Shown one piece after another: positions 4,117-45,518 of a stretch of DNA of 64,000 bases (the first letter of the stretch is position 1; each line of letters opens with the position of its first letter). The notes under the pieces were generated by a model, which was given only the letters and a program-made list of their open reading frames with translations, did not search any database and was not told the origin of the DNA. The stretch comes from Anderseniella sp. Alg231-50 (GTDB lineage: Bacteria > Pseudomonadota > Alphaproteobacteria > Rhizobiales > Aestuariivirgaceae). The DNA is taken from positions 62,013-126,012 of the forward strand of contig NZ_LT703005.1 of assembly GCF_900149695.1 (NCBI RefSeq), given 5' to 3'. The translations under genes were made by a program, and so were the position numbers.

Positions 4117-5040
4117 ATGATGAAAGTAATCACGAAATTCGCAATTGCAGCCGGTGCGATAATCCTGTCCGGCATGGTGTCGACGGTGTCATGGGCGCAA
4201 ACCAGTGATGATAATACCGTCATAGAAACCCCTCAGGACGCAGTAGATACGCCGCCGACGTTTGAGGAAAAGCTCAAATTGGCCGCCGAGGGCGACATCG
4301 ACATTCAAATTTCACTGGCCAAGGACTACCTGTCCGGTGACAACAACACGCCAGTACGTCCTGTAGACGCAGCCAGGTGGCTGACCAAAGCATCAAAAAA
4401 GGGCAATGCGGAAGCGCAATTCCTGTTGGCAAATCTGTTGCGCGAAGGGGCCAAGGGTCTCAAGGCCAACGAGAAAAATGCCGTGACCCTGTATGCCAGC
4501 GCCGCCGACAAGGGACACGTCGAAGCAGCATATTGGGCCGCCGACGCCTACCACTACGGCAAGGGTGTCAAGAAGGCGGAAATCAAGGCTATCGGGTTCT
4601 ATGAAAAAGCAGCCGATCTCGGGCATGTCGCGTCCAAGAACAATCTTGGCCTAATGTACCTTCAGGGCAAAGGTGTCGACCGCGATCTGCAAACCGCTTT
4701 CCGCTTGTTCAGCGATACATCGAAGTCAGGCAACTCCTGGGGCCAGAACAACCTTGGCGGCATGTATGAGATGGGCTGGGGAACCGTGAAGGACACCGCC
4801 AGAGCCCTCCAGCTCTATCAAAGATCTGCCACTGCAGGAAACATCCACGGTGCCAGCAACATGGTGCGCCTCAGGGCCGTTCTCGAAGTTGCGGCCAAGG
4901 CGGAAGCCGCCGAGCAGGAAAATCAGGACACGACAACCCCGTCAACTGATGCCGCACCTCAGGCAAGTGATACACCTGACCCGGATGCGGACCCGGCGCC
5001 GGCTGAAACCCAGATTCTCGGCGGATCATCGACCAATTGA
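4117..5040 (+). CDS. Sel1-like repeat (SLR) exported protein
   Basis: About 307 residues. A signal peptide (MMKVITKFAIAAGAIILSG...SWAQ) is followed by a linker and about five Sel1-like helical repeats between residues 45 and 265, with hallmark pieces such as A-x-F-L-L-A-N-L-L-R-E-G, AAYWAADAYHYGKGV, NNLGLMYLQGKGV and NNLGGMYEMGWG. The C-terminal 45 residues are acidic and rich in Pro, Thr and Ala, probably disordered. Such repeats scaffold protein-protein contacts in the periplasm or envelope; the specific partner cannot be read from sequence. The start is placed at ATG 4117 (ATG 4120 is equally possible), with a G-rich Shine-Dalgarno tract near 4101; a TTG at 4108 is open but less likely. 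Confidence 0.8.
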   Translation: MMKVITKFAIAAGAIILSGMVSTVSWAQTSDDNTVIETPQDAVDTPPTFEEKLKLAAEGDIDIQISLAKDYLSGDNNTPVRPVDAARWLTKASKKGNAEAQFLLANLLREGAKGLKANEKNAVTLYASAADKGHVEAAYWAADAYHYGKGVKKAEIKAIGFYEKAADLGHVASKNNLGLMYLQGKGVDRDLQTAFRLFSDTSKSGNSWGQNNLGGMYEMGWGTVKDTARALQLYQRSATAGNIHGASNMVRLRAVLEVAAKAEAAEQENQDTTTPSTDAAPQASDTPDPDADPAPAETQILGGSSTN

Positions 5041-5077
5041 ATCTGGTGCCGGCCAGTAGAAGACGCCGCGGAAAGAT

Positions 5078-6433
5078 TCACTGGGTGCCATTTTGACGGT
5101 CCGCCATCAGGCCTGACAGGTCAGGTACGTCAGCTGACTGCGGCATCGCCAGGATGCAGTCTATCAGATCATCCGGGTCCGGGTGCCGGCCATGAACCAG
5201 CAAACCACGCGCCTTCGCCACCATGTCGTTGTGTGACAACGGCAGTTCCGGGTCGCCGCGTGCATCAGTCACCTCGTGCGAGATCATCGACCCGTCTTCC
5301 AGTTCAACCTCTATCCGGCTGCCCCAATGGCGCGGATAGGCGGACTGAAACTGGTCAACGACCGATACTGTGGTTCGGGAGCGCAGATCACGGGCTTCGC
5401 CACGTGCCTCAGCTTCAAAATTCTCGAATAACACGGCGCCTTCAAGCAACGCGGTTGCCACGCAGTGCTGCAGGGAGAACTTGCCCGCATAGGCTGTGTC
5501 GGCTTCCACCCGGTCACACAGGTCAAGTGCTGCCTGATAGGCAAAAACCCGGACAGCACGGATGGGTATGCCGTCCGGCAATTGCCGATGAAGGGTCAAC
5601 CCGCATTCAATGGCAGGATGGGTGTGCCGGCATGACGGCCAGGGCTTGATTGAGGTCTGATGCAGTTGCCATGGATCACTGTCGGCCGGCAAAAGCAGCG
5701 TTTCATCGGGGTTGGGGCAAGTTGCCCGGTAAAACCCGCGCTCACCTTCAAGGATTTCCGGGGCGCCGGTGAAGCCGTGTTCAGCAAGGGTTGCTGCAAC
5801 AAGGCCGGCCTCGGCGCCGCGTCCGGCATGCAGATGCTTGGTTTCAGCACCTGTGTCGAGAAATTGCCATAACCCCGCTGATTGCGATCCGGCATTGCCA
5901 AGCGCATTCACGCATGCCGCAGCATCAAGCTCCAACAGGCTGGCAACTGCCATGGCAGACCCGAACGGCCCGCAGGTCGCGGTGTTGTGCCAGATCTTGT
6001 AGTGTTCCGGGCCAACGCTCATGCCGACCCTGCAACAGGCTTCAAAGCCTCGCAGGATGGCCGTCAGGGCGGCTTTGCCGTTTGAACCGGCGCCCATTGC
6101 GAACACGGCGGGAACGACTATGCAACCGGGATGTACCACAGACGCCCGGTGCAGATCATCGACTTCAAGTATGTGGCACAAACTACCGTACAGGAACGAC
6201 AACCTTGCCCGGTCAACTGGATGCCCGGCGCCATTGGACATCGAGTTTTGCCAGGCCAGAAGCTTGCGCCCCTGTACCGAATTTCGACCTGCAACAATGT
6301 TGGCAACCGCATCGAGCGTGAACAGTGCAGCTGCCGTGAGATCGTCGTTCGATACGGGACGCGCCATGATTGCAGCGCTCAATTGCGTTGTCAGCGAAGT
6401 GGTCAGTTCGACCGGAGAGGGCATCTGGTTCAT
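5078..6433 (-). CDS. MmgE/PrpD family protein
   Basis: About 451 residues from the ATG at 6433; the frame stays open to 6604, but the extra N-terminus is basic and unlike the family. The opening SLTTQLSAAIM...ALFTLDAVANIVAGR is the usual helical start. Family signatures include NGAGHPVDRA, a catalytic-region D-D-L-H-R-A-S-V-V-H-P-G, GFEACCRVGM and KPWPSCRHTHPAIE. The family contains 2-methylcitrate dehydratase (PrpD), cis-aconitate decarboxylase and many uncharacterised relatives. No prpB or prpC lies nearby, so the substrate is unknown and a propionate role should not be assumed. It is divergent from rlpA with a 188-base gap. Confidence 0.8.
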   Translation of the reverse strand: MNQMPSPVELTTSLTTQLSAAIMARPVSNDDLTAAALFTLDAVANIVAGRNSVQGRKLLAWQNSMSNGAGHPVDRARLSFLYGSLCHILEVDDLHRASVVHPGCIVVPAVFAMGAGSNGKAALTAILRGFEACCRVGMSVGPEHYKIWHNTATCGPFGSAMAVASLLELDAAACVNALGNAGSQSAGLWQFLDTGAETKHLHAGRGAEAGLVAATLAEHGFTGAPEILEGERGFYRATCPNPDETLLLPADSDPWQLHQTSIKPWPSCRHTHPAIECGLTLHRQLPDGIPIRAVRVFAYQAALDLCDRVEADTAYAGKFSLQHCVATALLEGAVLFENFEAEARGEARDLRSRTTVSVVDQFQSAYPRHWGSRIEVELEDGSMISHEVTDARGDPELPLSHNDMVAKARGLLVHGRHPDPDDLIDCILAMPQSADVPDLSGLMADRQNGTQ

Positions 6434-6621
6434 GCGACGGACTATAGATTGCCTGTCTGCCGCAGGAAAGCGGGAACGTAAGGCAGGTGTTGCCGTCAAG
6501 TATCTGTTAACCGTGTTTCTGAACCTCGCCTTTACCGTCATTGGTGCAAGCTCGTTAAACATTTTGCGAAACCCGTCGGGGGATCGCGGGCCAAAGTACG
6601 GCACTTGAAATTGGGAACACT

Positions 6622-7581
6622 GTGATCATGACAGATCAGAATTTGCGGCTGCCAACCCGCCGGAGCAATCGGTTTTATTTCATTGGGGCAGGGGTTATGT
6701 GCGCTGTAGCCGTCGCGCTCGCAGGATGCTCGGGATCCTCGAAAAAAGACCCGTTTGCCGGTGTCGGGTCACCCATATGGGATGATGCCAAGGGACCGAT
6801 GCCCAAAGGCGGCGGCAGGCGTCATGTCGGCAAGTCCTATCAGGTTGCAGACATCTGGTTCCACCCGAAGCATGAACCAAACTATTCCAAGACGGGTGTC
6901 GCGTCGTGGTACGGTCCAAAATTCAACAGGCGCATGACTTCAAATGGCGAATGGTTCGATATGGAGCAGATGACTGCTGCCCACACAACCATGGAACTGC
7001 CGAGTTATGCCAAGGTCACAAACCTTGAAAATGGCCGCGAAGTCATTGTGCGGGTCAACGACCGCGGTCCGTTCGTGAACGACCGGATCATTGACATGTC
7101 CAAGCGTTCAGCTGACCTGCTCGGGTTCCGGGGCAGGGGCAAGACCAAGGCCCACGTACAGTATATCGGCCCGGCTCCCCTGAAAGATCCAACCTATGGC
7201 CACCTTGCTGCAATGAACCAGGAACTCAAGCGACGCACGCCGTTGAACGAGATGATCGCCAGCGCCGATCTGCGTGACGGTCGCTACGGTGATAACCAGT
7301 CGTCATACAATGCCGCTAATGCTGCCGCGCCTGCAAGCGCCGGCACAGGTGGATATTACATTCAGGTAGCAGCATTCGCCGATCCCGGAAACGCGCAACG
7401 CACCAAGGAATCACTGGCCGATCTGGGCAGCGTCCAGATCAAGCCTGCCAATGGCTCTTTCGGCCCCTTGTACCGGGTCCGGGTCGGACCACTAGACAAT
7501 CATGCAACCGCGCAGTCTGCCCTGGAGCAGGTACGTGCGCGCGGTCATCATGACGCTGTTGTGAATTCCGCTGTCAACTGA
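6622..7581 (+). CDS. rlpA: RlpA family septal ring lipoprotein (lytic transglycosylase)
   Basis: 319 residues. A lipoprotein signal ends in the lipobox L-A-G-C at residues 33-36. The double-psi beta-barrel (RlpA/DPBB) domain spans about 92-175 with TGVASWYGPKFN, TSNGEWFDM, A-A-H-T-T, VRVNDRGPF and a conserved D-R-I-I-D-M-S segment. A SPOR domain closes the protein (about 243-317, GGYYIQVAAFADPGNAQ). RlpA cleaves naked glycan strands at the septum, with the SPOR domain targeting it there. Start: GTG 6622 lies five bases after GGGA; ATG 6628 is eleven bases away, so either is possible. It is followed closely by dacA, a conserved pairing in alphaproteobacteria. Confidence 0.92.
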   Translation: MIMTDQNLRLPTRRSNRFYFIGAGVMCAVAVALAGCSGSSKKDPFAGVGSPIWDDAKGPMPKGGGRRHVGKSYQVADIWFHPKHEPNYSKTGVASWYGPKFNRRMTSNGEWFDMEQMTAAHTTMELPSYAKVTNLENGREVIVRVNDRGPFVNDRIIDMSKRSADLLGFRGRGKTKAHVQYIGPAPLKDPTYGHLAAMNQELKRRTPLNEMIASADLRDGRYGDNQSSYNAANAAAPASAGTGGYYIQVAAFADPGNAQRTKESLADLGSVQIKPANGSFGPLYRVRVGPLDNHATAQSALEQVRARGHHDAVVNSAVN

Positions 7582-7671
7582 TTGATCTACAATTCGAACC
7601 GGCCTGTTGATTGCGCGCATGCGGATGCGTAATGTGAAGCGAATCCATCAACTCAAACAACGGCGGTCGCC

Positions 7672-8865
7672 ATGCTAGAAACAGCAAGGTACAACACCAA
7701 CGCACAGGCCCGGCACTTCCTGGCCTGTGCAGTGATTGCCATAACGCTGCTGGTTGCGTTGCCATGGAAAACAGCAGCAGCCCAGGAATTCGAGACCATC
7801 GCCGACTATGCCATTGTCATGGACAGCCGGTCCGGCAAGGTTCTGTTTGAGAAAAACGCCGACGAGCTGGTGCCACCGGCCAGCATGAGCAAGATCATGA
7901 CCATGATCATGGTGTTCGAGCGGCTCAAACAGGGTCGTTTGAAACTAACCGATGAATTCACCATCACCGAAGACGCCTGGCGCCGGGGCGGGGCACCGTC
8001 CAGAAGCTCCACAATGTACGCCGAAGTGGGTTCGAAAGTTTCGTTGGAGAATCTGATCAAGGGAGTCGTGATCCACTCCGGCAACGACGCTGCGATTGCA
8101 ATTGCACAAGCCATCGGAGGCACCGAAGACGGTTTCGCCGATGACATGACCAGGCGCGCGCGCGAACTTGGACTGCCGAAATCCACCTTCAAGAACGCCA
8201 CGGGCCTGCCCGCGGAAGGTCATTTGACCACGATGCGTGAACTGGCCAGCCTGACCCGGTACATCATCGAAGTGTTTCCGGATTACTACAAGTACTACGG
8301 CATACGCGAATTCACCTGGAACAACATCACGCAACAAAACCGCAACCCGCTGCTGGGCAAGTATCGCGGCGCCGACGGGGTGAAGACCGGATACATCAGG
8401 CAGTCCGGTTATGGCATGATCGGATCCGCCGAACGTGAAGGCAGGCGCCTTGTCGTTGTGGTCGGCGGCATGAAATCCAGGCGCGACCGTGCCCAGGAAG
8501 CCGAAAGGCTACTCGATTTCGGATTCAGGAAATTTCGTGCTGTCCGGCTGTTTTCGGCAGGCGATACCGTAGGACAGGCCCGTGTCTGGGGCGGCGAAGC
8601 CCCCTCTGTGAAGCTGGTCACCAAAAAGGACATTCTGACACTGCTGTCGGAAGAGGAACAGGCGACCGCGGAAGTGCAACTTGTTTATTCCGGCCCCTTG
8701 AAGGCGCCGATCAAGGGCGGCACCGCGATTGGTGTCGTGCGTATCCTCAGCGACGGCAAGCTGGTGTACAAGGCTCCCGTTCACACCAAGAACAGCGTTC
8801 CGGCAACCGACAGCATATGGAAAAAGGCTCTCGATTCAGCGCTTTTCATGGCACTCGGTGGTTGA
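7672..8865 (+). CDS. dacA: D-alanyl-D-alanine carboxypeptidase (PBP5/6 class)
   Basis: 397 residues with a signal peptide (hydrophobic 15-32, cleavage near AAAQ). The three serine-acyltransferase motifs are intact: S71-M-S-K74, S135-G-N137 and K237-T-G239. The C-terminal domain (about 290-380) matches the PBP5 beta-rich tail, and residues 380-397 may form the amphipathic membrane anchor (SIWKKALDSALFMALGG). The enzyme removes the terminal D-Ala from pentapeptides in the periplasm and limits cross-linking. It lies between rlpA and tmk as in other Hyphomicrobiales, with 15 bases to tmk, so co-transcription is likely. Confidence 0.93.
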   Translation: MLETARYNTNAQARHFLACAVIAITLLVALPWKTAAAQEFETIADYAIVMDSRSGKVLFEKNADELVPPASMSKIMTMIMVFERLKQGRLKLTDEFTITEDAWRRGGAPSRSSTMYAEVGSKVSLENLIKGVVIHSGNDAAIAIAQAIGGTEDGFADDMTRRARELGLPKSTFKNATGLPAEGHLTTMRELASLTRYIIEVFPDYYKYYGIREFTWNNITQQNRNPLLGKYRGADGVKTGYIRQSGYGMIGSAEREGRRLVVVVGGMKSRRDRAQEAERLLDFGFRKFRAVRLFSAGDTVGQARVWGGEAPSVKLVTKKDILTLLSEEEQATAEVQLVYSGPLKAPIKGGTAIGVVRILSDGKLVYKAPVHTKNSVPATDSIWKKALDSALFMALGG

Positions 8866-8880
8866 TAGTTTAAGGCCCAC

Positions 8881-9513
8881 ATGAAACGGGCATTGTTCAT
8901 TACATTCGAGGGCGGCGAGGGCACCGGCAAGAGTACGCAGACTGCGTTGCTCGCTGACCGGTTGCGCGAATCCGGACACCAGGTGGTGGAAACCCGTGAG
9001 CCGGGTGGATCACCGGACGCAGACGCGATACGGCAATTGCTGGTCAGCGGTGAGACCGGCAGGTGGAGCGTAACCGCGGAAATCCTGCTCAACTACGCGG
9101 CGCGCGAAAGCCATTTGCACCAGACCATTGTCCCTGCACTGGAGAATGGCGCAATCGTCATCTGCGACCGTTTTGCCGACTCGACCCGTGCGTACCAGGG
9201 CTATGCAGGCGACGGCGACCATAATCTTATCGAACAACTGGATCGGAAAATTGTAGGCCATGTGCAGCCGAACCTCACCCTGGTGTTTGACCTCGATCCA
9301 GGCATTGGCCTCGAAAGGGCCGGATTGCGCGGTGGCGACGACCGCTTTGAGCGCAAGGGCCTGGATTTCCACAACCGGCTGCGGGACGGCTATCTGGCTG
9401 TGGCCGGCAAGTTTTCAGACAGATGCAGCATCATCGATGCGTCCGGTTCTGTTGACATGGTTGCAGCGTCGGTCTGGCAGGCCGTAGTGCCTCATCTTGG
9501 GGACACAGGTTAA
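8881..9513 (+). CDS. tmk: Thymidylate kinase
   Basis: 210 residues, the normal length. The P-loop EGGEGTGKST is at residues 10-19, the T-R-E-P-G-G motif follows near 38-43, DRFADSTRAYQG is the nucleotide/TMP-binding DR(Y/F) motif, and the lid region contains ERKGLDFHNRLRDGY. It phosphorylates dTMP to dTDP for DNA synthesis in the cytoplasm. The stop overlaps the holB start by one base (TAATG), so the two are translationally coupled, the common alphaproteobacterial arrangement. Confidence 0.96.
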   Translation: MKRALFITFEGGEGTGKSTQTALLADRLRESGHQVVETREPGGSPDADAIRQLLVSGETGRWSVTAEILLNYAARESHLHQTIVPALENGAIVICDRFADSTRAYQGYAGDGDHNLIEQLDRKIVGHVQPNLTLVFDLDPGIGLERAGLRGGDDRFERKGLDFHNRLRDGYLAVAGKFSDRCSIIDASGSVDMVAASVWQAVVPHLGDTG

Positions 9514-36421: not shown

Positions 36422-36865
36422 CTAGTCGAGTTCCGGAATACGCAGAACCTGGCCGGGATAAATCTTGTCCGGATGGCTCAGCATGGGTTTGTTGGCTTCA
36501 AAGATCACATTGTATTTTGCGCCTTTGCCCTTGCCATAGTGCGCCTCGGAAATTTTCCAGAGGTTGTCGCCTTTCTTCACCGTATAGAAGACGGGATCCT
36601 TCTGGGATGGCGCGGTCAGATTGCTCTCGACCTTGGACACCCCGAGCGTATTGCCGACGGCAATAATCGCCTTTTCAAGAATTGACTGGTCTGCAACATC
36701 CCCGGTTACAATGGCCTTGTCACCGTCTATTTCGACTTTCACGTTCTCGGTGCCGAGCTTGTGTGAATCAAGTTCCTTCTTCAGCGCGTCCGCTGTTGGC
36801 GCTTCCTCATCACTCCCGATACCAAGTGCTTTGCCGGCGCTCTTGATGAAATCGAAAATTCCCAT
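36422..36865 (-). CDS. lysM: BON-LysM peptidoglycan-associated protein (YgaU-like)
   Basis: 147 residues. MGIFDFIKSAGKALGIG opens the protein, a BON domain spans about 35-90 (VKVEIDGDKAIVTGDVADQS), and a LysM domain closes it (YTVKKGDNLWKISEAHYGKG ... P-D-K-I-Y-P-G-Q-V-L-R-I-P). This is the YgaU/Kbp layout: in E. coli Kbp binds potassium and is induced by osmotic stress. No signal peptide is evident, which also matches Kbp. AAGGAGA precedes the ATG. It is divergent from the peroxiredoxin gene. Confidence 0.9.
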   Translation of the reverse strand: MGIFDFIKSAGKALGIGSDEEAPTADALKKELDSHKLGTENVKVEIDGDKAIVTGDVADQSILEKAIIAVGNTLGVSKVESNLTAPSQKDPVFYTVKKGDNLWKISEAHYGKGKGAKYNVIFEANKPMLSHPDKIYPGQVLRIPELD

Positions 36866-37013
36866 TGTGTTCTCCTTGCTGTAGACTTGCCGCTCCTCAC
36901 GCGATCACCTATTTGTGACCTACTTTTGCACTGAACGTCTACCAAAAACATTTGCTGAATTTTAGTGTAAAAACACGTACGTACAGGAACAGTATTTTTT
37001 ACAGGAGGTTATT

Positions 37014-37676
37014 ATGGCTCTGCAGATTGGCGATACCGCCCCGAACTTCGATGCGGAAACGACGGAAGGCAATATCAATTTCTATGACTGGGCGGGCGAC
37101 TCCTGGGTGGTGATCTTCTCGCATCCGAAAGATTTCACGCCGGTGTGCACCACCGAACTTGGTGCAATGGCAGGCATCGCGGACCAGTTTGCTGCCCGTA
37201 ATACCAAGATAATCGGGTTGTCGGTCGACAGCGTCGATGATCATCAGCGCTGGAAGAAAGACATCGCGGATGCAACCGGCAACGCCGTTCATTACCCAAT
37301 GATCGGCGACACCGAAATGACAGTGGCCAAGCTGTTCGGCATGATCCATCCAAACGCAACCGGCAAGGCGGCCGAGCGTACCGCAGCAGACAACAAGACC
37401 GTTCGCACCGTGTTCGTCATTGGACCGGACCGGGAGGTGAAGCTGACCCTCGCCTACCCCATGAGCACCGGTCGCAACTTTGATGAAATCCTGCGCGTAC
37501 TGGATTCGATTCAGCTGACCGCCAAACACAAGGTGGCGACACCGGTAAACTGGCAAAACGGCGACGACGTTATCATCGTGCCGGCCGTGTCTGATGAGGA
37601 AGCCAAGGAGAAATTCCCGCAGGGCTGGAAGTCTCCCAAGCCCTACATCCGCCTGGTCAGCCAGCCTGAAGACTGA
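37014..37676 (+). CDS. 1-Cys peroxiredoxin (Prx6-type)
   Basis: 220 residues. The peroxidatic motif is FSHPKDFTPVCTTELGAMA (Cys near residue 45) with the catalytic Arg in N-K-T-V-R-T-V-F-V-I and the Thr preceding the Cys. No resolving Cys occurs in the C-terminal region, which ends in the Prx6-type W-Q-N-G-D-D-V-I-I-V-P and FPQGWKSPKPYIRLV, so it is of the 1-Cys class that needs an external thiol, often glutathione with a GST. ACAGGAGG five bases before ATG gives strong translation. A GST gene follows. Confidence 0.94.
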   Translation: MALQIGDTAPNFDAETTEGNINFYDWAGDSWVVIFSHPKDFTPVCTTELGAMAGIADQFAARNTKIIGLSVDSVDDHQRWKKDIADATGNAVHYPMIGDTEMTVAKLFGMIHPNATGKAAERTAADNKTVRTVFVIGPDREVKLTLAYPMSTGRNFDEILRVLDSIQLTAKHKVATPVNWQNGDDVIIVPAVSDEEAKEKFPQGWKSPKPYIRLVSQPED

Positions 37677-37702
37677 CGTTCTCAACAATACCGCGATGAC
37701 AG

Positions 37703-37732
37703 AAAGGCCAGACCCGCAAGTCTGGCCTTTTT
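37703..37732 (+). terminator. Rho-independent terminator of the peroxiredoxin gene
   Basis: GGCCAGAC-CCGCAA-GTCTGGCC is an eight-base-pair GC-rich stem followed by TTTTT and preceded by AAA. It lies 27 bases past the peroxiredoxin stop and should end that transcript before the downstream GST gene. Confidence 0.93.
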
Positions 37733-37804
37733 CAGTTGGCGGACAGGTCAACTGTCAGCTAGGTTCACTGCACAACAATCACATTCAGACGGGAGGCGTT
37801 TGCC

Positions 37805-38419
37805 TTGAAACTTCACCACAATCCAGCTTCACCGTTCGTACGCATGGTCATGGTGACCGCTCATGAACTCAACATTGCAGATCAGATCGAAAAAATTGAA
37901 ACGGGTGTCTTCCTCCCCGATCGGGTCAATGACGGCGTCGCCGCAGATAATCCACTCGGCAAGATACCGGCACTGGTCACCGATCATGGCACAGCGCTGT
38001 ATGACAGCCGGGTCATCTGCGAGTACCTGTGCCACCATGCCGGCGACAAGCAGTTGCTGCCGGACGAACCGGTGTCCAGATTCCGTATTCTGACTTTGCA
38101 GTCTCTGGCAATCGGCCTGATGGATGCCGGCGTTTCGCGCCGCTATGAAACTGCTGTACGCCCTGAGGAGAAGCGCTGGCCGGACTGGGTGGCCCGTCAA
38201 CATACCCGTATGGAAGCCGGAATGGACGATCTCGAGGCCAACTGGGCCAATGAACTGGGTGAGGTAAATGCCGGTTCCCTGGCAGTTGCCATAGTCCTGG
38301 CCTATTTCGATTTCCGCTATGGTGATCTTGGCTGGCGTGACAACCGGCCAAAACTGGCGGCTTTCTATGAGGACTTTGCCAAGCGGTCCTCGATGACGGC
38401 AACCCTGCCGCCAGCGTGA
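37805..38419 (+). CDS. Glutathione S-transferase family protein
   Basis: 204 residues from a TTG start, supported by GGGAGG eight bases upstream and by the family start K-L-H-H-N-P-A-S-P-F-V-R-M-V. The N-terminal domain has the conserved S-P-F-V-R active-site Ser region, GKIPALVTDHGTALYDSRVICEYL (cis-Pro and DSR, the usual ES glutathione contact). The helical C-terminal domain follows. It may reduce the neighbouring 1-Cys peroxiredoxin, an inference from human Prx6-GST-pi chemistry; the terminator between them argues against a shared transcript. The DUF2182-DUF1326 pair follows after 13 bases. Confidence 0.88.
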   Translation: MKLHHNPASPFVRMVMVTAHELNIADQIEKIETGVFLPDRVNDGVAADNPLGKIPALVTDHGTALYDSRVICEYLCHHAGDKQLLPDEPVSRFRILTLQSLAIGLMDAGVSRRYETAVRPEEKRWPDWVARQHTRMEAGMDDLEANWANELGEVNAGSLAVAIVLAYFDFRYGDLGWRDNRPKLAAFYEDFAKRSSMTATLPPA

Positions 38420-38432
38420 GTGCATACCTGCG

Positions 38433-39191
38433 ATGATCCGTATTATTGAACACCCCGGATTTCTGGTCAGCACCATCATGCTCAGCCTGGCGGCAGCCTT
38501 GTGGTGGATGATGTGGGCCCATATGGGAAATGCCGCTCACATGGCCGACATGGCCATGATGGTGAACTGGAGCGCGAAAAGCCTGACCGGCACATCGGCA
38601 ATGTGGTTGTTCATGATGCTCGCCATGATGTTACCCGCCATGGTGCCGATGGTCGCAACCTACGCTCTGGTCTCGAAAAATGAAACACAGGGTGCAGCGC
38701 TGGCGCTGCGGGTTGGGGTTTTCTCTGCCGGATACTTCTCCTTGTGGGCGGTGTTTTCCATAGCCGCGGCCTTTCTGCAGACGGCACTGGCACAGACCCC
38801 CTGGTTTGAATCAGGCGGCACCCAGGCTTTGCCTGTTGCCTCGGGTGTATTACTGATTGCCGCCGGCGCCTGGCAACTCACCCCCATAAAGGATACCTGC
38901 CTGCAGCATTGCCGCAGCCCGATGACTTTCCTGCTGGCACACTGGCAAGGCGGCCTGAAAGGTGCATTTCCCCTCGGCCTGCACCACGGAGCGTTTTGCG
39001 TCGGCTGTTGCGGCATGATCATGGGATTGATGTTTGTATTCGGTGCCATGACCGTGTGGTGGATGGCCGTGCTGGCGCTGTATTTTGTTGCGGAAAAAAC
39101 CATACCTAGAGCAGAAACCTGGGGACGGATCGCCGGCATTGTGCTGATTGTTGCAGGCCTGTACGTTCTGGTTGGAACACTTTGGAGATAA
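38433..39191 (+). CDS. DUF2182 predicted metal-binding membrane protein
   Basis: 252 residues with about six transmembrane helices. It is rich in potential copper or zinc ligands: MMWAHMGNAAHMADMAMM near residue 29, MWLFMMLAMMLPAMVPM near 55-71, D-T-C-L-Q-H-C near 152-158 and HHGAFCVGCCGMIMG near 184-198. This Met/Cys/His pattern in membrane helices fits the DUF2182 family, whose member PpoB2 acts as a copper chaperone for tyrosinase in Marinomonas (from memory, to be checked). The substrate metal here is inferred. A DUF1326 gene follows after seven bases, the usual partner. Confidence 0.85.
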   Translation: MIRIIEHPGFLVSTIMLSLAAALWWMMWAHMGNAAHMADMAMMVNWSAKSLTGTSAMWLFMMLAMMLPAMVPMVATYALVSKNETQGAALALRVGVFSAGYFSLWAVFSIAAAFLQTALAQTPWFESGGTQALPVASGVLLIAAGAWQLTPIKDTCLQHCRSPMTFLLAHWQGGLKGAFPLGLHHGAFCVGCCGMIMGLMFVFGAMTVWWMAVLALYFVAEKTIPRAETWGRIAGIVLIVAGLYVLVGTLWR

Positions 39192-39198
39192 CGACGAC

Positions 39199-39816
39199 AT
39201 GGCCGAAATCGAAGACTGGAAAATCAAGGGTGAACTGGCCCTCAACTGTAATTGCGACCTGTTTTGTCCCTGCGTCGTGTCTCTGGGTGCCGCGAAACCC
39301 ACACACGGATACTGCCAGGCCTGGATGGCGGTGCGCATTGATGATGGCCACTGGGGATCAACCAGCCTGAAGGGGGTAAATGTAGCCGCCCTTTTGGATA
39401 TTCCCGGTCGCATGGGAGAAGGCGGATGGTCGGTCGGCCTGTACATCGATGACAAGGCCAGTGATGACCAGGCCCACGCGCTTGAAATGATCCTGTCCGG
39501 CTCCGCCAAGGGCACGACCGGCCTGTTCAAACTGCTGGTCGCTAATTTCCTTGGCACTCAACGCATGCCGGTCACCTATGAAACGGACGGTACGGAACGC
39601 TCGGTCACGGCGGGACGCAAGATCATGGCGAGCATAAAACAGATAGATGGCGCCCGGCCAGGTGAACCGGTAACGGTCCAGAACACCACATACTGGATGG
39701 GACCGGAAGTGATCGTGGCACAAGGCGTCAAGGCCAAGGTGCGCGATTTCGGGCGCGTATGGACCTTTGACGACAAGTCCGCCGAATTGTGCAATATCGA
39801 GTGGTCGGGGCCGTAA
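39199..39816 (+). CDS. DUF1326-domain protein
   Basis: 205 residues from ATG 39199 (GGAG is 11 bases upstream; earlier in-frame residues lie inside the previous gene). The key motif is LNCNCDLFCPCVVS near residues 15-28, which places four Cys in a C-x-C-x3-C-x-C arrangement, a likely metal or thiol site. The family motifs T-H-G-Y-C-Q-A-W and E-M-I-L-S-G follow, with an all-beta C-terminal half. No signal peptide or membrane helix is seen. DUF1326 and DUF2182 genes are recurrent neighbours, so a joint job in metal handling is likely, but no biochemical role is established. Confidence 0.88.
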   Translation: MAEIEDWKIKGELALNCNCDLFCPCVVSLGAAKPTHGYCQAWMAVRIDDGHWGSTSLKGVNVAALLDIPGRMGEGGWSVGLYIDDKASDDQAHALEMILSGSAKGTTGLFKLLVANFLGTQRMPVTYETDGTERSVTAGRKIMASIKQIDGARPGEPVTVQNTTYWMGPEVIVAQGVKAKVRDFGRVWTFDDKSAELCNIEWSGP

Positions 39817-39828
39817 CCCGGTCACCTC

Positions 39829-40608
39829 TCACTCGCCTTTGAACACCGGCTTGCGTTTTTCCAGAAAAGCCGAAACGCCCTCGTCGTAGTCGTGACTCGC
39901 TGCTGCTTCCGCCTGTAGTTTGGCTTCAACCGCCAGGTGGGCATCCAATCCGTGTGAAGATGATGCATTAATTGCCTGTTTTATCAGCGAAAACGCCTTG
40001 GTGGGCTGCCTCGCCAACCGGCTTGCAATCCGGGTGGCATCGTCCATCAGGTCGTCGTCATCACTCACCTGCCAGATCAACCCCCATTCCAGCGCCTTTT
40101 CCGCGGGCAAGGGCTCGGCCAGCATCGCCATTCCCTTGGCGCGCGCCTCGCCGACCTGTCTCGGCAGCGTCCAGGTGCCGCCGGCATCGGGGATCAGGCC
40201 GATGCGGGCAAACGCCTGCAGGAAGGACGCCGACCGGCCAGCCAGAATAATATCGCAGGCCAGCGCTAGATTGGCTCCGGCACCTGCTGCAACCCCGTTT
40301 ACCGCACACACCACCGGCATCGGCAGGTTGCGGATCCGGGCCACCAGCGGATTGAAATCATCTTCCAGCAGCTCCAGAATCTCACCGGGCCCGTCCATCC
40401 GCAGGTCGGCCAGGTCCTGGCCTGCGCAAAACGCCCTGCCCGCACCAGTAAGCAGTACCGCGCGCGCGCCGTTACTCTCTATTTCATCGAATGCTGACCG
40501 TAACTCCGCATGCATATTGCGGGTCGTCGAGTTCAACTTGTCGGGGCGGTTAAGCGTCACAACCGCCAAATTGTCGTTGAGATCGAATGTGATGTCGGAG
40601 TATTCCAT
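39829..40608 (-). CDS. paaG: Enoyl-CoA hydratase/isomerase, PaaG-like
   Basis: 259 residues of the crotonase fold. The opening LAVVTLNRPDKLNSTTR is typical, the oxyanion-hole loop is AGRAFCAGQDLADLR, and VVCAVNGVAAGAGANLALACDIILAG plus ARIGLIPDAGGTWTLPR form the active-site region with the PaaG-type Asp in I-P-D-A-G-G. PaaG isomerises ring-1,2-epoxyphenylacetyl-CoA to the oxepin form. No other paa genes are in the window, so it could serve another beta-oxidation step. It is divergent from the UbiH-type gene with 100 bases between starts. Confidence 0.85.
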   Translation of the reverse strand: MEYSDITFDLNDNLAVVTLNRPDKLNSTTRNMHAELRSAFDEIESNGARAVLLTGAGRAFCAGQDLADLRMDGPGEILELLEDDFNPLVARIRNLPMPVVCAVNGVAAGAGANLALACDIILAGRSASFLQAFARIGLIPDAGGTWTLPRQVGEARAKGMAMLAEPLPAEKALEWGLIWQVSDDDDLMDDATRIASRLARQPTKAFSLIKQAINASSSHGLDAHLAVEAKLQAEAAASHDYDEGVSAFLEKRKPVFKGE

Positions 40609-40708
40609 TTGTGAGGTCCTGATGCTTTATCGGTGCCGCCGGATTGATTTGACTGAACGAAGTGTGCCTCACCTTCGAGGCCGCGTGCAATCGGCAAGGT
40701 GAACACAT

Positions 40709-41932
40709 ATGCAAAACGGGTCTGAGTTTGATGTGGTGGTTGCCGGTGCCGGTCCAGCCGGCCTGGCATCGGCCTGCCTGCTGGCCCAGGCTGGATGCCG
40801 CATCGCCTGCATAGCTCCAGGCATTGAGCTGCTGACATCGCCACGCTCCGATGAACCTGTCCGGCGCACCGTTGCCCTGATGCAACCCGCCATTCGGTTG
40901 CTTGCAACGCTTGGCGTCTGGCCGGGCAAACTGCAACCCGGCAGCGCCCCGCTTGAACTGCTTAAAATCGTAGACGATACCCTCGCCACGTTTTCCGCAC
41001 CCACGGTCACTTTTTCTTCAAGTGAACTCGGAGAAGGTCCATTCGGCTGGAACATCCCGCTGGACTTGCTGGTGCATGAACTGGCCCACGCGGCAAAGGC
41101 TGCCGGTGTTACCCTGATCAACGCATCCGTACGCGGCTGCCAGCTTGGCGCGGGCAAGGCGGAACTGTCACTGGACACCGAAGCCAAGTTGGGTGCCGTT
41201 GTCGTTATCGCTGCAGATGGGCGCCAGTCCGTCCTGCGTCGGGACGCCGGCATCTCCGTCAATGAATGGCAATATGACCAGACCGCCCTTGCACTCAGCT
41301 TTTCCCACACCTCGGCGCATCACGGCATGTCTGTCGAATATCACAAGACGTCCGGCCCGTTTACCACGGTGCCCCTGCCCGGCAACAAATCAAGCCTGGT
41401 ATGGATGGTCCGGCCGCATGACGTCGACCCGATCTGCGCACTTTCCGAAGATCAACTGGCCGCACGGTTGCAACTTGAGATGCACGGTGACCTGGGCCTC
41501 GTTGAAGACGTGACAACACCGGCCACCATTCCCATGACCGGCATGGCCGCCCGCAAGTTCGCTGCAAATCGAGTGTTGCTGGTGGGAGAAGCCGCCCATG
41601 TCGTGCCGCCCATCGGCGCGCAGGGCCTGAATATGAGCTTGCGGGACGCCGCCTTTGCAGCGGAAGCCATCTCTGATGCCCTTCGCCTGTACGAAGACCC
41701 AGGCAGCGACAAATTGTGCGCCGCCTACGATACCGCCAGACGCGCAGACGTGGTGCCGCGCCAGGCCGCGGTGGACACCATGAACCGCTCGCTGATCTCC
41801 GAATTCTTCCCGCTGCACCTCGGCCGCGCCGTCGGCATGACCGCCCTGCAGCACATCCCGCCCCTGAAACGCCGGGCCATGCTGGAGGGCATGAATCCCA
41901 CCGGTTCGCTACCGCGGGCAATGCGGGGCTAG
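40709..41932 (+). CDS. UbiH/UbiF/Coq6-family FAD monooxygenase
   Basis: 407 residues. FAD-binding motifs are VVVAGAGPAGLASACLLAQAG at the N-terminus, the middle Asp-Gly (IAADGRQSVLRR), and VLLVGEAAHVVPPIGAQGLNMSLRDA near 285-310, with the usual Gly-Asp replaced by Gly-Glu. The family hydroxylates ubiquinone precursors; alphaproteobacteria often use UbiL/UbiM-type members that modify one or two ring positions. No other ubi gene lies here. The start ATG is at 40709. Confidence 0.88.
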   Translation: MQNGSEFDVVVAGAGPAGLASACLLAQAGCRIACIAPGIELLTSPRSDEPVRRTVALMQPAIRLLATLGVWPGKLQPGSAPLELLKIVDDTLATFSAPTVTFSSSELGEGPFGWNIPLDLLVHELAHAAKAAGVTLINASVRGCQLGAGKAELSLDTEAKLGAVVVIAADGRQSVLRRDAGISVNEWQYDQTALALSFSHTSAHHGMSVEYHKTSGPFTTVPLPGNKSSLVWMVRPHDVDPICALSEDQLAARLQLEMHGDLGLVEDVTTPATIPMTGMAARKFAANRVLLVGEAAHVVPPIGAQGLNMSLRDAAFAAEAISDALRLYEDPGSDKLCAAYDTARRADVVPRQAAVDTMNRSLISEFFPLHLGRAVGMTALQHIPPLKRRAMLEGMNPTGSLPRAMRG

Positions 41933-42165
41933 AGTATCCATGGCGCATCAAAAGATTACTTGGTGTACATCAGGTCGGTGGCTTCTGGAGCCAGCCATTC
42001 TCCCAAAGCGAAGCGTAAGCCTTTTGTGATTTAATCCGCTGCACCGCGCCGAACGACCGAACAGGGCGGAATGCTGTCATTCACCACGACTTGCATAAAC
42101 GACAGCTATGCCGGCGCAGCTGCCGTTCATATGCGTCGCATAAACGTCCATTTTCTGGAAACGCG

Positions 42166-42561
42166 TCAAAACCACATGTCCTTCACCGTCCGACCGTCAC
42201 CCGGAAGTTCTCTAAAGCTGTCGTGCCCCTCAAAGTGACGGATTGGTATCTCGCTGATCGGTGAAGGGTCAGACATCCGTACATTTACGGCAGTCCGTTT
42301 TCGCCCGTTTTCGCTCTCAAAACTTGCAACGTAGTGCGTCACACACCCACAAATGGTGCAGAAGTGTACGTCAACATCTTCGCTATCGCGACGCTGATAG
42401 GTACTTGTTTGCCCGGTCACTTGAATGTCATAGCCGATATACCCGTAGGCCCAAAGGACGCCGTAGCGCCGACAAATCGTACAATTGCAGGCCGTGACGG
42501 ACTCTGGCAACGCATCGAGTGTCCAGCTAATTTCGCCGCAGTGGCATGTTCCTTTCAGCAT
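42166..42561 (-). CDS. GFA family zinc-fold protein (second copy)
   Basis: 131 residues from ATG 42561, preceded by GAGAGGAAA; the frame is open further upstream without a family match. Zinc ligands are GTCHCGEISW (C-x-C), ACNCTICRRYG (C-x-C-x-x-C) and FCTICGCVTHY (C-x-x-C). It is not close in sequence to the GFA protein at 17547. Codon choice has less third-position G/C than neighbouring genes, and the preceding gap has two copies of GCATAAACG, so later acquisition is possible. No substrate is known. Confidence 0.8.
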   Translation of the reverse strand: MLKGTCHCGEISWTLDALPESVTACNCTICRRYGVLWAYGYIGYDIQVTGQTSTYQRRDSEDVDVHFCTICGCVTHYVASFESENGRKRTAVNVRMSDPSPISEIPIRHFEGHDSFRELPGDGRTVKDMWF

Positions 42562-42706
42562 ACAGCAATTTCCTCTCTCGACATTGTTGCCGTTCTCTGC
42601 GCGACACATAATCGGCAGTTCCCGGCCGAAAAATCCCCCGAAAGGCGTGGAAGTAATCTCTGGTTCCATTAACCGATGTTGTGCTGGTTACCGGGAACTC
42701 TCAGAT

Positions 42707-43852
42707 CTATTTCTGGTTGAGCACGATATCGTTGTGCGCACCCACGCCGGGGGCGGCCTTCTCCACACTGGCATCGTCACGAAACTGCGGTGCGACGGCC
42801 ACCGGTGTCGCCGGCAGTGTATCGCCTGCTTCATTGACAAGCGTGTGGTCGAACAGGCCACGGCCGTGAAAATGCATGTCGCGCATGGCTTCCGGCAAAG
42901 TCTTTACCACCGTGCAGCAGCAGTTCGCCTGCGCCAGGATGGGCTCCCAGTGATAGCCCGGAAACTCCGAAATCAGTGACCGGACGGCTTCGATCGTACC
43001 AGCCGGGTCCGACTGGTCGTTGTGGAATTCAGGAGCAAGCTTGACGGCTTCACAAAACCCGTCCCAGAACTTCTGCTCCAGTGCGGCAACGGCAACATGC
43101 CGGCCATCGGATGTCGGATAAATCTGGTAGCGCGGCGAGCCGCCGGTCAAGAGGCTGGTGCCGTTTGCAGGCCAGAACCCGGACGCCAGGCCATTGCCGA
43201 TCGCCCACCACATCAGCATGAACATGTTGTCCGCCATGGCGATATCGAGATGCGTACCCTCGCCGGTCTTTTCGCGGTTCAGAAGCGCCAGAAGAATGTT
43301 CACAACCGCTGGATAGGTCCCGCCGGCGATATCCGCCGCCAGGAACGGCGGCACAGTCGGGTTGGCTTCCGGCCCCATGCTCAGCGACAGCAAGCCGGTA
43401 TCCCCGATGTAATTCAGGTCATGTCCGGTTTTCTCGACCCGGTCGCCGGTCTGGCCATATCCGGTAATGGAACAATAGATGATCCCCGGATTGACCAGAG
43501 CCATGGCATCGTAGCCCAGCCCCAATCTGTCCATCACGCCGGGACGAAACTGCTCGACCACAATGTCAGCTTCCCGGATAAGCGGCAGCAGAAACTCCAG
43601 TTGCCGATCGGATTTCAGATCCAGCGCCAGCGACTGTTTTCCGCGGTTGAGCATGGCGAAGCTGGCGGGTTCCCGGCCCCATTTGGGTTCGTAGGAGCGC
43701 ATCTCTTCGCCATCACCGGGCCGTTCAATCTTGATCACCTGTGCGCCGGCCTCAACCAGAAACAGGGTCGCCATAGGGCCCGGCAGCAGTGTCGAAAAGT
43801 CGAGAACCTTGATCCCGCTCAACGGCTGTGCGGATGCTGAAGTGCCTGTCAT
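42707..43852 (-). CDS. CaiB/BaiF CoA-transferase family, AMACR-like
   Basis: About 381 residues from ATG 43852; the frame is open to 43996 but the extra residues are not family-like. The start LSGIKVLDFSTLLPGPMATL is the CaiB/BaiF opening. A triad matching alpha-methylacyl-CoA racemase is present: His in TGHDLNYIGDTG, Asp in F-L-A-A-D-I-A-G-G-T and Glu in VAVAALEQKFW, as in MCR H126/D156/E241. This makes 2-methylacyl-CoA epimerisation more likely than CoA transfer, but both occur in the family. It is divergent from a malyl-CoA lyase gene, hinting at linked methyl-branched CoA metabolism. Confidence 0.82.
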   Translation of the reverse strand: MTGTSASAQPLSGIKVLDFSTLLPGPMATLFLVEAGAQVIKIERPGDGEEMRSYEPKWGREPASFAMLNRGKQSLALDLKSDRQLEFLLPLIREADIVVEQFRPGVMDRLGLGYDAMALVNPGIIYCSITGYGQTGDRVEKTGHDLNYIGDTGLLSLSMGPEANPTVPPFLAADIAGGTYPAVVNILLALLNREKTGEGTHLDIAMADNMFMLMWWAIGNGLASGFWPANGTSLLTGGSPRYQIYPTSDGRHVAVAALEQKFWDGFCEAVKLAPEFHNDQSDPAGTIEAVRSLISEFPGYHWEPILAQANCCCTVVKTLPEAMRDMHFHGRGLFDHTLVNEAGDTLPATPVAVAPQFRDDASVEKAAPGVGAHNDIVLNQK

Positions 43853-44039
43853 AATCCCAAAATCTGATCCGGAAACCCAACTTACCGTACTCGTGTAGCT
43901 GCCAAACCTGCTGTGTGCAACACACGGGTAGCAAAATTTAAATAAGCCATTGTGGAGCGGGAGAAGCTGCCCTAAACAATTTGTGCATCGCAACAAATTT
44001 CAAGCAGGCCTGACATCGGCCCGAATGACAGCAGGTATC

Positions 44040-45095
44040 ATGAAACTTCCATCGCAATTCTATAAGCCGCTCGCCATAGGCGCCCCTGCCCCCATGCGCG
44101 AACCCCCTGTCAAGATTGAACGGATGATCCATTTCCTGCCACCGCAGATAGAAAAGATGCGCAACAAGGTGGAAAGCCTGATTCCACAAGTCGACGTCAT
44201 TCTCGGAAACCTCGAAGACGCGATCCCCGCCGATGACAAGATCGCTGCCCGTGAGGGTTTCATTGAAATGGCGCTGGCGCATGATTATGGCACCACCGGC
44301 TTGTGGACGCGCATCAATTGCCTGAACAGCCCATGGGCGCTCGATGACATTACCCGGTGTGTGCTGGAAGCAGGAAACAAGCTGGATGTGATGATGTTGC
44401 CAAAGGTCGAAGGCGCCTGGGATATCCACTACCTCGACCAGTTGCTTGCACAGTTGGAGGCCCGCGCCGGCATCACCCGGCCGATCATGATCCACGCCAT
44501 TCTGGAAACCGCACAAGGGGTAAAGAATGTCGAGGAAATCGCGGCAGCCAGCCCGCGCATGCACGGCATGTCACTGGGCCCTGCCGATCTCGCAGCTTCG
44601 CGCGGCATGAAAACCACCCGTGTCGGTGGTGGACATCCCCACTACGGCGTTTTGGCAGACGGTTCCGTCCATGGTGCCAGAGACAGTTCAGCGCGGCCGT
44701 TCTACCAGCAGGACCTGTGGCACTACACGGTCGGCAAGATGGTCGATGCCTGCGCAGCAAACGGTATCAAGGCGTTTTACGGCCCGTTTGGCGATTTTTC
44801 TGACCCTGATGCCTGTGAGGCACAGTTCCGCAACGCATTCCTGCAGGGTTGCCTCGGGGCATGGTCACTCCACCCGTCACAGGTCGAGATTGCCAAGCGG
44901 GTCTTCTCACCCGATCCGGCAGAGGTGAAGTTTGCACTCAGGATTCTCGAAGCCATGCCCGACGGTACCGGCGCCGTCATGATTGACGGAAAAATGCAGG
45001 ATGACGCCACCTGGAAACAGGCCCGCGTCATAGCTGATCTGGCCCGGCTGGTTGCAGCCAAGGAGCCGGACATGGCGGAAATTTATGGTTTATAA
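44040..45095 (+). CDS. mcl: L-malyl-CoA / beta-methylmalyl-CoA lyase (Chloroflexus Mcl type)
   Basis: 351 residues from ATG 44040 ([21 protein letters not shown]). From memory the protein follows Chloroflexus aurantiacus Mcl (348 residues) closely along its length: [60 protein letters not shown] and [21 protein letters not shown]. Mcl cleaves malyl-CoA to acetyl-CoA and glyoxylate, or methylmalyl-CoA to propionyl-CoA and glyoxylate, in the 3-hydroxypropionate bicycle or ethylmalonyl-CoA pathway. The alphaproteobacterial Mcl1 of the ethylmalonyl-CoA pathway is a different subgroup, so transfer is possible. Magnesium ligands E and D are in N-L-E-D-A and later. Confidence 0.87.
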
Positions 45096-45176
45096 TCAGC
45101 GCGCCGTTCAGTAACTATCAACTTAATTTTTTGAACCGAGCTTGAATCAAGCCGCAATTGGATGCATTTATAGGCG

Positions 45177-45518
45177 ATGATCGCGATCAACAGACAGGCA
45201 CGATTCGGAATAGGACAGGTGGTAAAGCATCGCCTGTTCCCGTTTCGTGGTGTCATCTTCGATGTCGATCCCACGTTCTCAAACACTGAGGAATGGTGGG
45301 ATTCCATCCCGGAGGAAACCCGGCCCTCCAAGGACCAGCCGTTTTACCATCTGCTGGCCGAAAACGAGGAAACCGAATACATAGCCTATGTATCGGAGCA
45401 AAACCTGCTTGCCGACGACACCGGCGACCCGGTACGCCATCCGCAGATCCCCGAGTTTTTCGAAACTTATGATCCGGAAAAGCATACCTACCTGCCGCGC
45501 GACAGCGCAACTCACTGA
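45177..45518 (+). CDS. hspQ: Heat-shock protein HspQ
   Basis: 113 residues of the HspQ/YccV family. Signatures include ARFGIGQVVKHRLFPFRGVIFDVDPTF, E-E-W-W-D-S-I-P, QPFYHLLAENEETEYIAYVSEQNL and the closing H-P-Q-I-P-E-F-F. HspQ modulates Lon specificity and binds hemimethylated or DnaA-related targets in enterobacteria; its role is less studied in alphaproteobacteria. CTTGAA at about 45140 and CATTTAT at 45164 lie in the leader, resembling a sigma-32 promoter but with the elements spaced about 20 bases apart, a little long. Confidence 0.93.
   Translation: MIAINRQARFGIGQVVKHRLFPFRGVIFDVDPTFSNTEEWWDSIPEETRPSKDQPFYHLLAENEETEYIAYVSEQNLLADDTGDPVRHPQIPEFFETYDPEKHTYLPRDSATH

Follow-up and report, generated by a model that had tools for sequence, protein, structure and literature searches.

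The ppoB2 and DUF1326 genes of Anderseniella sp. Alg231-50 lie side by side in the window (the whole 64,000-nucleotide stretch of DNA that was analyzed), and comparison across genomes indicates that the pair is a true unit. On balance, we favor the reading that it encodes a two-part copper-delivery module in which the DUF1326 protein, as a cytosolic Cu(I) donor, would feed the membrane protein PpoB2, which would in turn metallate an oxidase.

The ppoB2 gene (38433..39191, + strand) encodes a predicted inner-membrane protein of 252 aa that matches PF09948, formerly DUF2182 (E = 8.4e-60, 202 bits against a Pfam cut-off of 28.7). The DUF1326 gene (39199..39816, + strand) encodes a soluble protein of 205 aa with five invariant cysteines that matches PF07040 (E = 2.4e-50, 171.6 bits against a Pfam cut-off of 25). 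The two are separated by seven bases (39192–39198), which bears out the positions and the spacing given in an earlier note on this DNA. DUF1326 starts at the ATG at 39199 and has a GGAG approximately 11 nt upstream; a 222-aa ORF from the TTG at 39148 is the mechanical longest frame only and was rejected as the gene model. Neither a signal peptide nor a membrane helix is evident in the protein, which is consistent with a cytosolic location. The earlier note described both families as unassigned and named DUF2182 as the copper chaperone PpoB2. That name agrees with Pfam, where PF09948 now carries the name 'PpoB2, copper chaperone', and the description as unassigned holds for DUF1326, which is without an assigned function. 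Neither window protein matches any NCBIfam model, the Rfam search gave no RNA in the vicinity, and promoter and terminator counts near the pair were at the level of shuffled sequence. No copper enzyme adjoins the pair in the window.

Pairing was measured in a sample of 150 genomes of the order and a sample of 299 genomes of the phylum. Genes in the compared loci were called by codon usage with the anchor genes forced in. DUF1326 occurs in 39 of the 150 genomes and PpoB2 in 62 of them, and every one of these DUF1326 genomes also has PpoB2 (39/39, Fisher 4e-20). PpoB2 adjoins 46 of the 52 full-length DUF1326 genes in the 150 genomes and 41 of 45 DUF1326 genes in the phylum sample. The two genes are neighbors in Actinomycetota and Betaproteobacteria plasmid records too, divergently in one case. 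The 46 adjacent pairs divide into 24 with the order of the window, PpoB2-DUF1326 (type A), and 22 with the order DUF1326-PpoB2 (type B). In the DUF1326 tree and the PpoB2 tree alike, a single branch separates type B from the rest, so gene order, DUF1326 clade, and PpoB2 clade go together, including in genomes that have both types. Pairwise distances of the type A partners are correlated (rho = 0.72, 0/2000 permutations), a value to which shared species history contributes. One locus (L089, G009:C130, 146–1444) has two tandem DUF1326 genes upstream of a single PpoB2, so the soluble partner may differ between loci in stoichiometry or role.

In an alignment of 40 DUF1326 sequences, whose identity to the window protein extends down to 24%, no residue with a reactive side chain is invariant other than the five cysteines. 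Four of them form the C17-x-C19-x3-C23-x-C25 motif (39247..39273, + strand) and the fifth is C39 (39313..39315, + strand), all invariant in 40/40 sequences. The candidate ligands of PpoB2 are M57, M61, M65, M66, C156, C160, C189, C192, C193, M197, and M206, each 90–100% conserved; the window protein has the full set of 11, as do 39 of the 48 sequences aligned. M57, M61, M65, and M66 form a methionine face on helix 2 (38601..38630, + strand; 94–100% of 48 relatives), C156-x3-C160 lies in a loop (38898..38912, + strand; 90% and 96%), and C189-x2-C192-C193 lies in helix 5 (38997..39011, + strand; 100%, 92%, and 92%). The C156-x3-C160 loop carries a mean of 3.7 Lys plus Arg residues, and no such enrichment is seen in the loop that precedes helix 2 or in those that follow helices 3 and 5; by the positive-inside rule, the cysteine loop is therefore probably cytoplasmic, on the side where DUF1326 is expected. 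Loss of at least two of the five PpoB2 cysteines was seen in 0 of 38 proteins with a DUF1326 neighbor versus 4 of 10 without one (p = 0.001).

The motifs MMWAHMGNAAHMADMAMM, HHGAFCVGCC, and C-x-C-x3-C-x-C listed in the earlier note are present, the last as CNCDLFCPC, but the loop motif needs correction because it reads C156-LQ-H-C160, which is C-x2-H-C and not C-x3-H-C. The Met/His-rich N-terminus of PpoB2 to which that note drew attention (residues 26–43, 38508..38561, + strand) is denser than composition gives, with nine Met plus His in the best 18 residues, a density matched by 20 of 10,000 shuffles. The segment is nevertheless unconserved in the family, where each of its Met and His residues is common to at most 29% of 48 relatives, and the conserved candidate ligands are instead the helix-2 methionines and the five cysteines.

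The AlphaFold2 model of PpoB2 is all-helical (pLDDT 91) and has no convincing match among solved structures. Its PDB fold matches have Z scores of 5 or lower, which is uninformative for a helical bundle, and TIM17 and CcdA were rejected as relatives at chance-level E values of 0.78 and 7.7. The DUF1326 model (pLDDT 95) resembles acetoacetate decarboxylase and MppR (Foldseek E = 3.5e-5; Z = 11.1, rmsd 4.1, 161 residues), with the next group at Z = 8.9. A weak phmmer match of DUF1326 to yeast Ree1 (YJL217W, 3o12; E = 0.074) is a single-sequence match that is missing from the profile search and from the fold matches listed, and the lead was not kept. Profile matches of DUF1326 to streptococcal cell-wall and pilus proteins are at chance level (E = 0.1–0.3).

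The predicted fold and the frequency of acyl-CoA enzymes among the neighbors would suit an enzyme of the acetoacetate decarboxylase superfamily that has PpoB2 as its transporter and uses its cysteines structurally, for example to bind zinc. Even the best lysine column, however, which is located at the N-terminus, holds Lys in about half of the DUF1326 sequences (21/40), so the Schiff-base lysine is absent and the protein is not an acetoacetate decarboxylase. This lack, with the cysteines as the sole invariant reactive side chains, makes an enzymatic role improbable. The Cys pairs in the loop and helix of PpoB2 and the five cysteines of DUF1326 could also be read as a thiol-disulfide relay that passes electrons across the membrane in the manner of DsbD or CcdA and involves no metal. 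Methionine has no role in a thiol relay, yet the four helix-2 methionines are as conserved as the cysteines. In addition, no thioredoxin-like partner recurs, and neither fold nor profile searches gave a convincing match to CcdA or DsbD. A relay of this kind is likewise improbable.

The copper-delivery reading accounts for the ligands as follows. The five cysteines of DUF1326 (C-x-C-x3-C-x-C plus C39) would hold Cu(I) in the cytosol, and DUF1326 would pass the ion to PpoB2 at its cytoplasmic C-x3-C loop. From there, Cu(I) would move via helix 5, with its C-x2-CC, and the methionine face of helix 2, and PpoB2 would give the ion to the oxidase during oxidase maturation. The model thus supposes Cu(I) as the metal, contact between DUF1326 and PpoB2, the direction of transfer, the membrane topology, and the client. 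The earlier note proposed that copper or zinc moves from the DUF1326 protein to the membrane protein. Copper is the metal best supported by the adjacency of the genes, the invariant cysteines, the one characterized PpoB2, and the copper oxidases near relatives; zinc found no support in any context.

Comparison of neighboring genes for copper enzymes found that copper amine oxidase and SBP56 recur near relatives of the pair and tyrosinase beside PpoB2 without DUF1326. Nine of the 24 type A pairs, from six families, have a copper amine oxidase (PF01179) gene no more than 3.4 kb away and convergent with the pair (G079, G094, G037, G006, G038, G047, G036, G126, and G057). The chance expectation for these nine is approximately 0.02, a figure that assumes independent loci when the loci are not fully so. 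SBP56 is near nine loci and is also near the lone DUF1326 gene of G018. The type B loci have no shared copper partner and no consistent neighbor in the scan. In L121 (G087, 4852–7921, − strand), a strongly diverged lone PpoB2, from which most conserved cysteines are gone, forms a tandem with a copper amine oxidase, and there is no DUF1326.

Two other PpoB2 paralogs are encoded in the genome that contains the window. One is at approximately 1.63 Mb of C1 (L114, G000:C1:1621808-1637317; 6938–9248, − strand), where a tyrosinase frame (7725–9248) ends 7 nt before the PpoB2 frame (6938–7717). This tyrosinase has a C-terminal DUF7868 domain, and a second genome (G112, L230, 12861–15330) likewise has a tyrosinase and a PpoB2 as neighbors. 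The tyrosinase-linked PpoB2s are strongly diverged from the DUF1326-linked PpoB2s in the tree. The third paralog (L113, G000:C2:438649-453176; 6743–7543) has neither DUF1326 nor an evident copper enzyme as a neighbor, has C156, C192, and C193 replaced by Ser, and has its nearest relative in G115 (L120). Away from the window, the genome also encodes one copper amine oxidase (C1:2019052), two SBP56 proteins (C2:653286 and C1:1668839), and two tyrosinases, one with its own PpoB2 and the second at C2:177826. The distant copper amine oxidase, the two SBP56 proteins, and the second tyrosinase are candidate clients of the window pair.

The window pair is flanked by LysM, peroxiredoxin (37014..37676, + strand), and GST (37805..38419, + strand) genes on one side and by genes for a PaaG-type enoyl-CoA isomerase (39829..40608, − strand; TIGR02280, 362 bits against a cut-off of 345), UbiH, a CoA-transferase, an HpcH/CitE lyase, and HspQ on the other. 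In relatives, the same genes flank the amine-oxidase-type pair (window 36422–45518 compared with L103 and relatives), and the order in L103 is enoyl-CoA hydratase, PpoB2, DUF1326, GST, copper amine oxidase, peroxiredoxin, and LysM. Compared with that site, the window has no copper amine oxidase and its pair has the opposite orientation with respect to the flanks. The GST gene, which is convergent with the pair in relatives, runs in the same direction here and ends 13 nt before the start of ppoB2. The DUF1326 proteins of the amine-oxidase site form a clade alone (support 100/99.8), and forcing the window DUF1326 into that clade costs 44 log units with an AU p of 0.004, which is somewhat optimistic because the group was named after the first tree was seen. 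The window DUF1326 groups instead with L068, L075, and L124 and, in the DUF1326 tree, lies close to the dmdA-linked clade. The absent oxidase, the inverted pair, and the different clade point to replacement, and most likely the resident pair and oxidase gave way to a pair of other origin. Such a replacement also explains the peroxiredoxin and GST genes as part of the site and not as evidence of a redox role for the pair. Amine oxidation makes H2O2, and the peroxiredoxin and GST may serve that reaction.

In Rhodobacteraceae, dmdA and acuI are the commonest partners of the pair, and the standard order is GntR - PpoB2 - DUF1326 - (often DinB) - dmdA - acuI. The pair is likewise flanked by dmdA and acuI in Acidimicrobiia, and dmdA-like genes are found in 20 of 39 DUF1326 genomes versus 5 of 111 others. 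To our knowledge, the products of dmdA and acuI are not copper enzymes. A Marinovum algicola plasmid (pMaD9, L205) encodes PpoB2 and DUF1326 with an acyl-CoA synthetase, DmdA, an AcuI-type reductase, and SBP56. Its record labels PpoB2 and DUF1326 as 'involved in DMSP breakdown', a label for which no source was found. The SBP56 of this plasmid has no evident signal peptide, so the export route would not serve SBP56 there. In Hyphomicrobium, SBP56 is a Cu-dependent methanethiol oxidase (PMC5739008). A record titled Oceanobacillus (L124, WNWL01000001.1) contains an alphaproteobacteria-like GntR-PpoB2-DUF1326-acuI locus, and the assembly is probably mislabeled or contaminated.

The DMSP context admits a protective role in which the pair buffers or guards against copper-thiolate stress when DMSP demethylation releases methanethiol, giving copper tolerance and loading no enzyme. 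The dmdA and acuI arrangements in Rhodobacteraceae and Acidimicrobiia, the enrichment of dmdA-like genes, and the Marinovum label fit such a role, as does the position of the window DUF1326 nearer the dmdA-linked clade than the amine-oxidase clade. Many pairs are in genomes without dmdA, however, neither the amine-oxidase nor the tyrosinase context has a connection with DMSP, and no known copper-resistance genes were seen near the pairs; we regard protection as unlikely. The genes upstream of the window pair offer a further explanation. The earlier note rightly placed peroxiredoxin and GST there and took them as a hint of redox stress, and in this genome the four genes are indeed co-directional, with the short GST-ppoB2 spacing, as expected if their products act together. 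That link was not sustained. Peroxiredoxin and GST are conserved flanks of the site, they lie head-on to the pair in relatives, and in several relatives they enclose a copper amine oxidase. The pair is also found elsewhere without them, which excludes them as general operon partners, and the window pair differs in ancestry from the usual pair of the site. A joint redox-stress function here is thus very hard to credit.

The copper-delivery module remains the favored reading, and it can be extended. Tentatively, DUF1326 could represent a novel type of Cu(I) metallochaperone of the cytosol, with an acetoacetate-decarboxylase fold, a five-cysteine site, and PpoB2-type membrane chaperones as its only partners. 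Together, the two could serve metallation in general, having been taken up independently by amine oxidases and, in marine bacteria, by the DMSP-demethylation/methanethiol pathway. If so, copper supply would be part of DMSP sulfur processing by these organisms. The near-constant pairing, the invariant cysteines, and the copper-oxidase and DMSP contexts make the function of DUF1326 directly testable. Both families are already in the catalogs, and a copper role has been published for one PpoB2; the apparent novelty lies in the association of PpoB2 with DUF1326 and the contexts in which it occurs. Neither DUF1326 nor DUF2182 was found by name in the open-access papers searched.

Four known systems bear comparison with the pair. 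The acetoacetate decarboxylase superfamily (3bgt and 4jmd) shares the predicted fold of DUF1326 (Z of approximately 11 over about 160 residues), but DUF1326 has only ~8% identity to it, no conserved catalytic lysine, and five invariant cysteines. The dmdA-acuI operon of marine Rhodobacteraceae is the commonest physical partner of relatives of the window pair, whereas the window has neither gene nearby and the AcuI and DmdA-like protein of this genome are encoded elsewhere. The SCO1/SenC gene next to mtoX, linked to methanethiol oxidase maturation, is similar in that a putative copper chaperone is encoded with a copper oxidase of methylated-sulfur metabolism; the partners at mtoX are SCO1/SenC and MauG, in contrast to the multi-helix membrane protein and beta-rich soluble protein found here (PMC5739008). 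The fourth is the ppoB1-ppoB2 tyrosinase operon of Marinomonas mediterranea, where PpoB2 is a copper-transfer protein of COG5486 and the one characterized family member, for which copper transfer to an oxidase is shown (PMC2855505). It has the same membrane family beside a copper oxidase, and the tyrosinase-PpoB2 locus of this genome is an operon of the same kind, although that PpoB2 has lost several of the conserved cysteines. Transfer of function from Marinomonas PpoB2 is insecure because the tyrosinase-linked PpoB2s are far from the DUF1326-linked ones, and the window PpoB2 differs from the Marinomonas arrangement in being paired with DUF1326 and having no oxidase adjoining.
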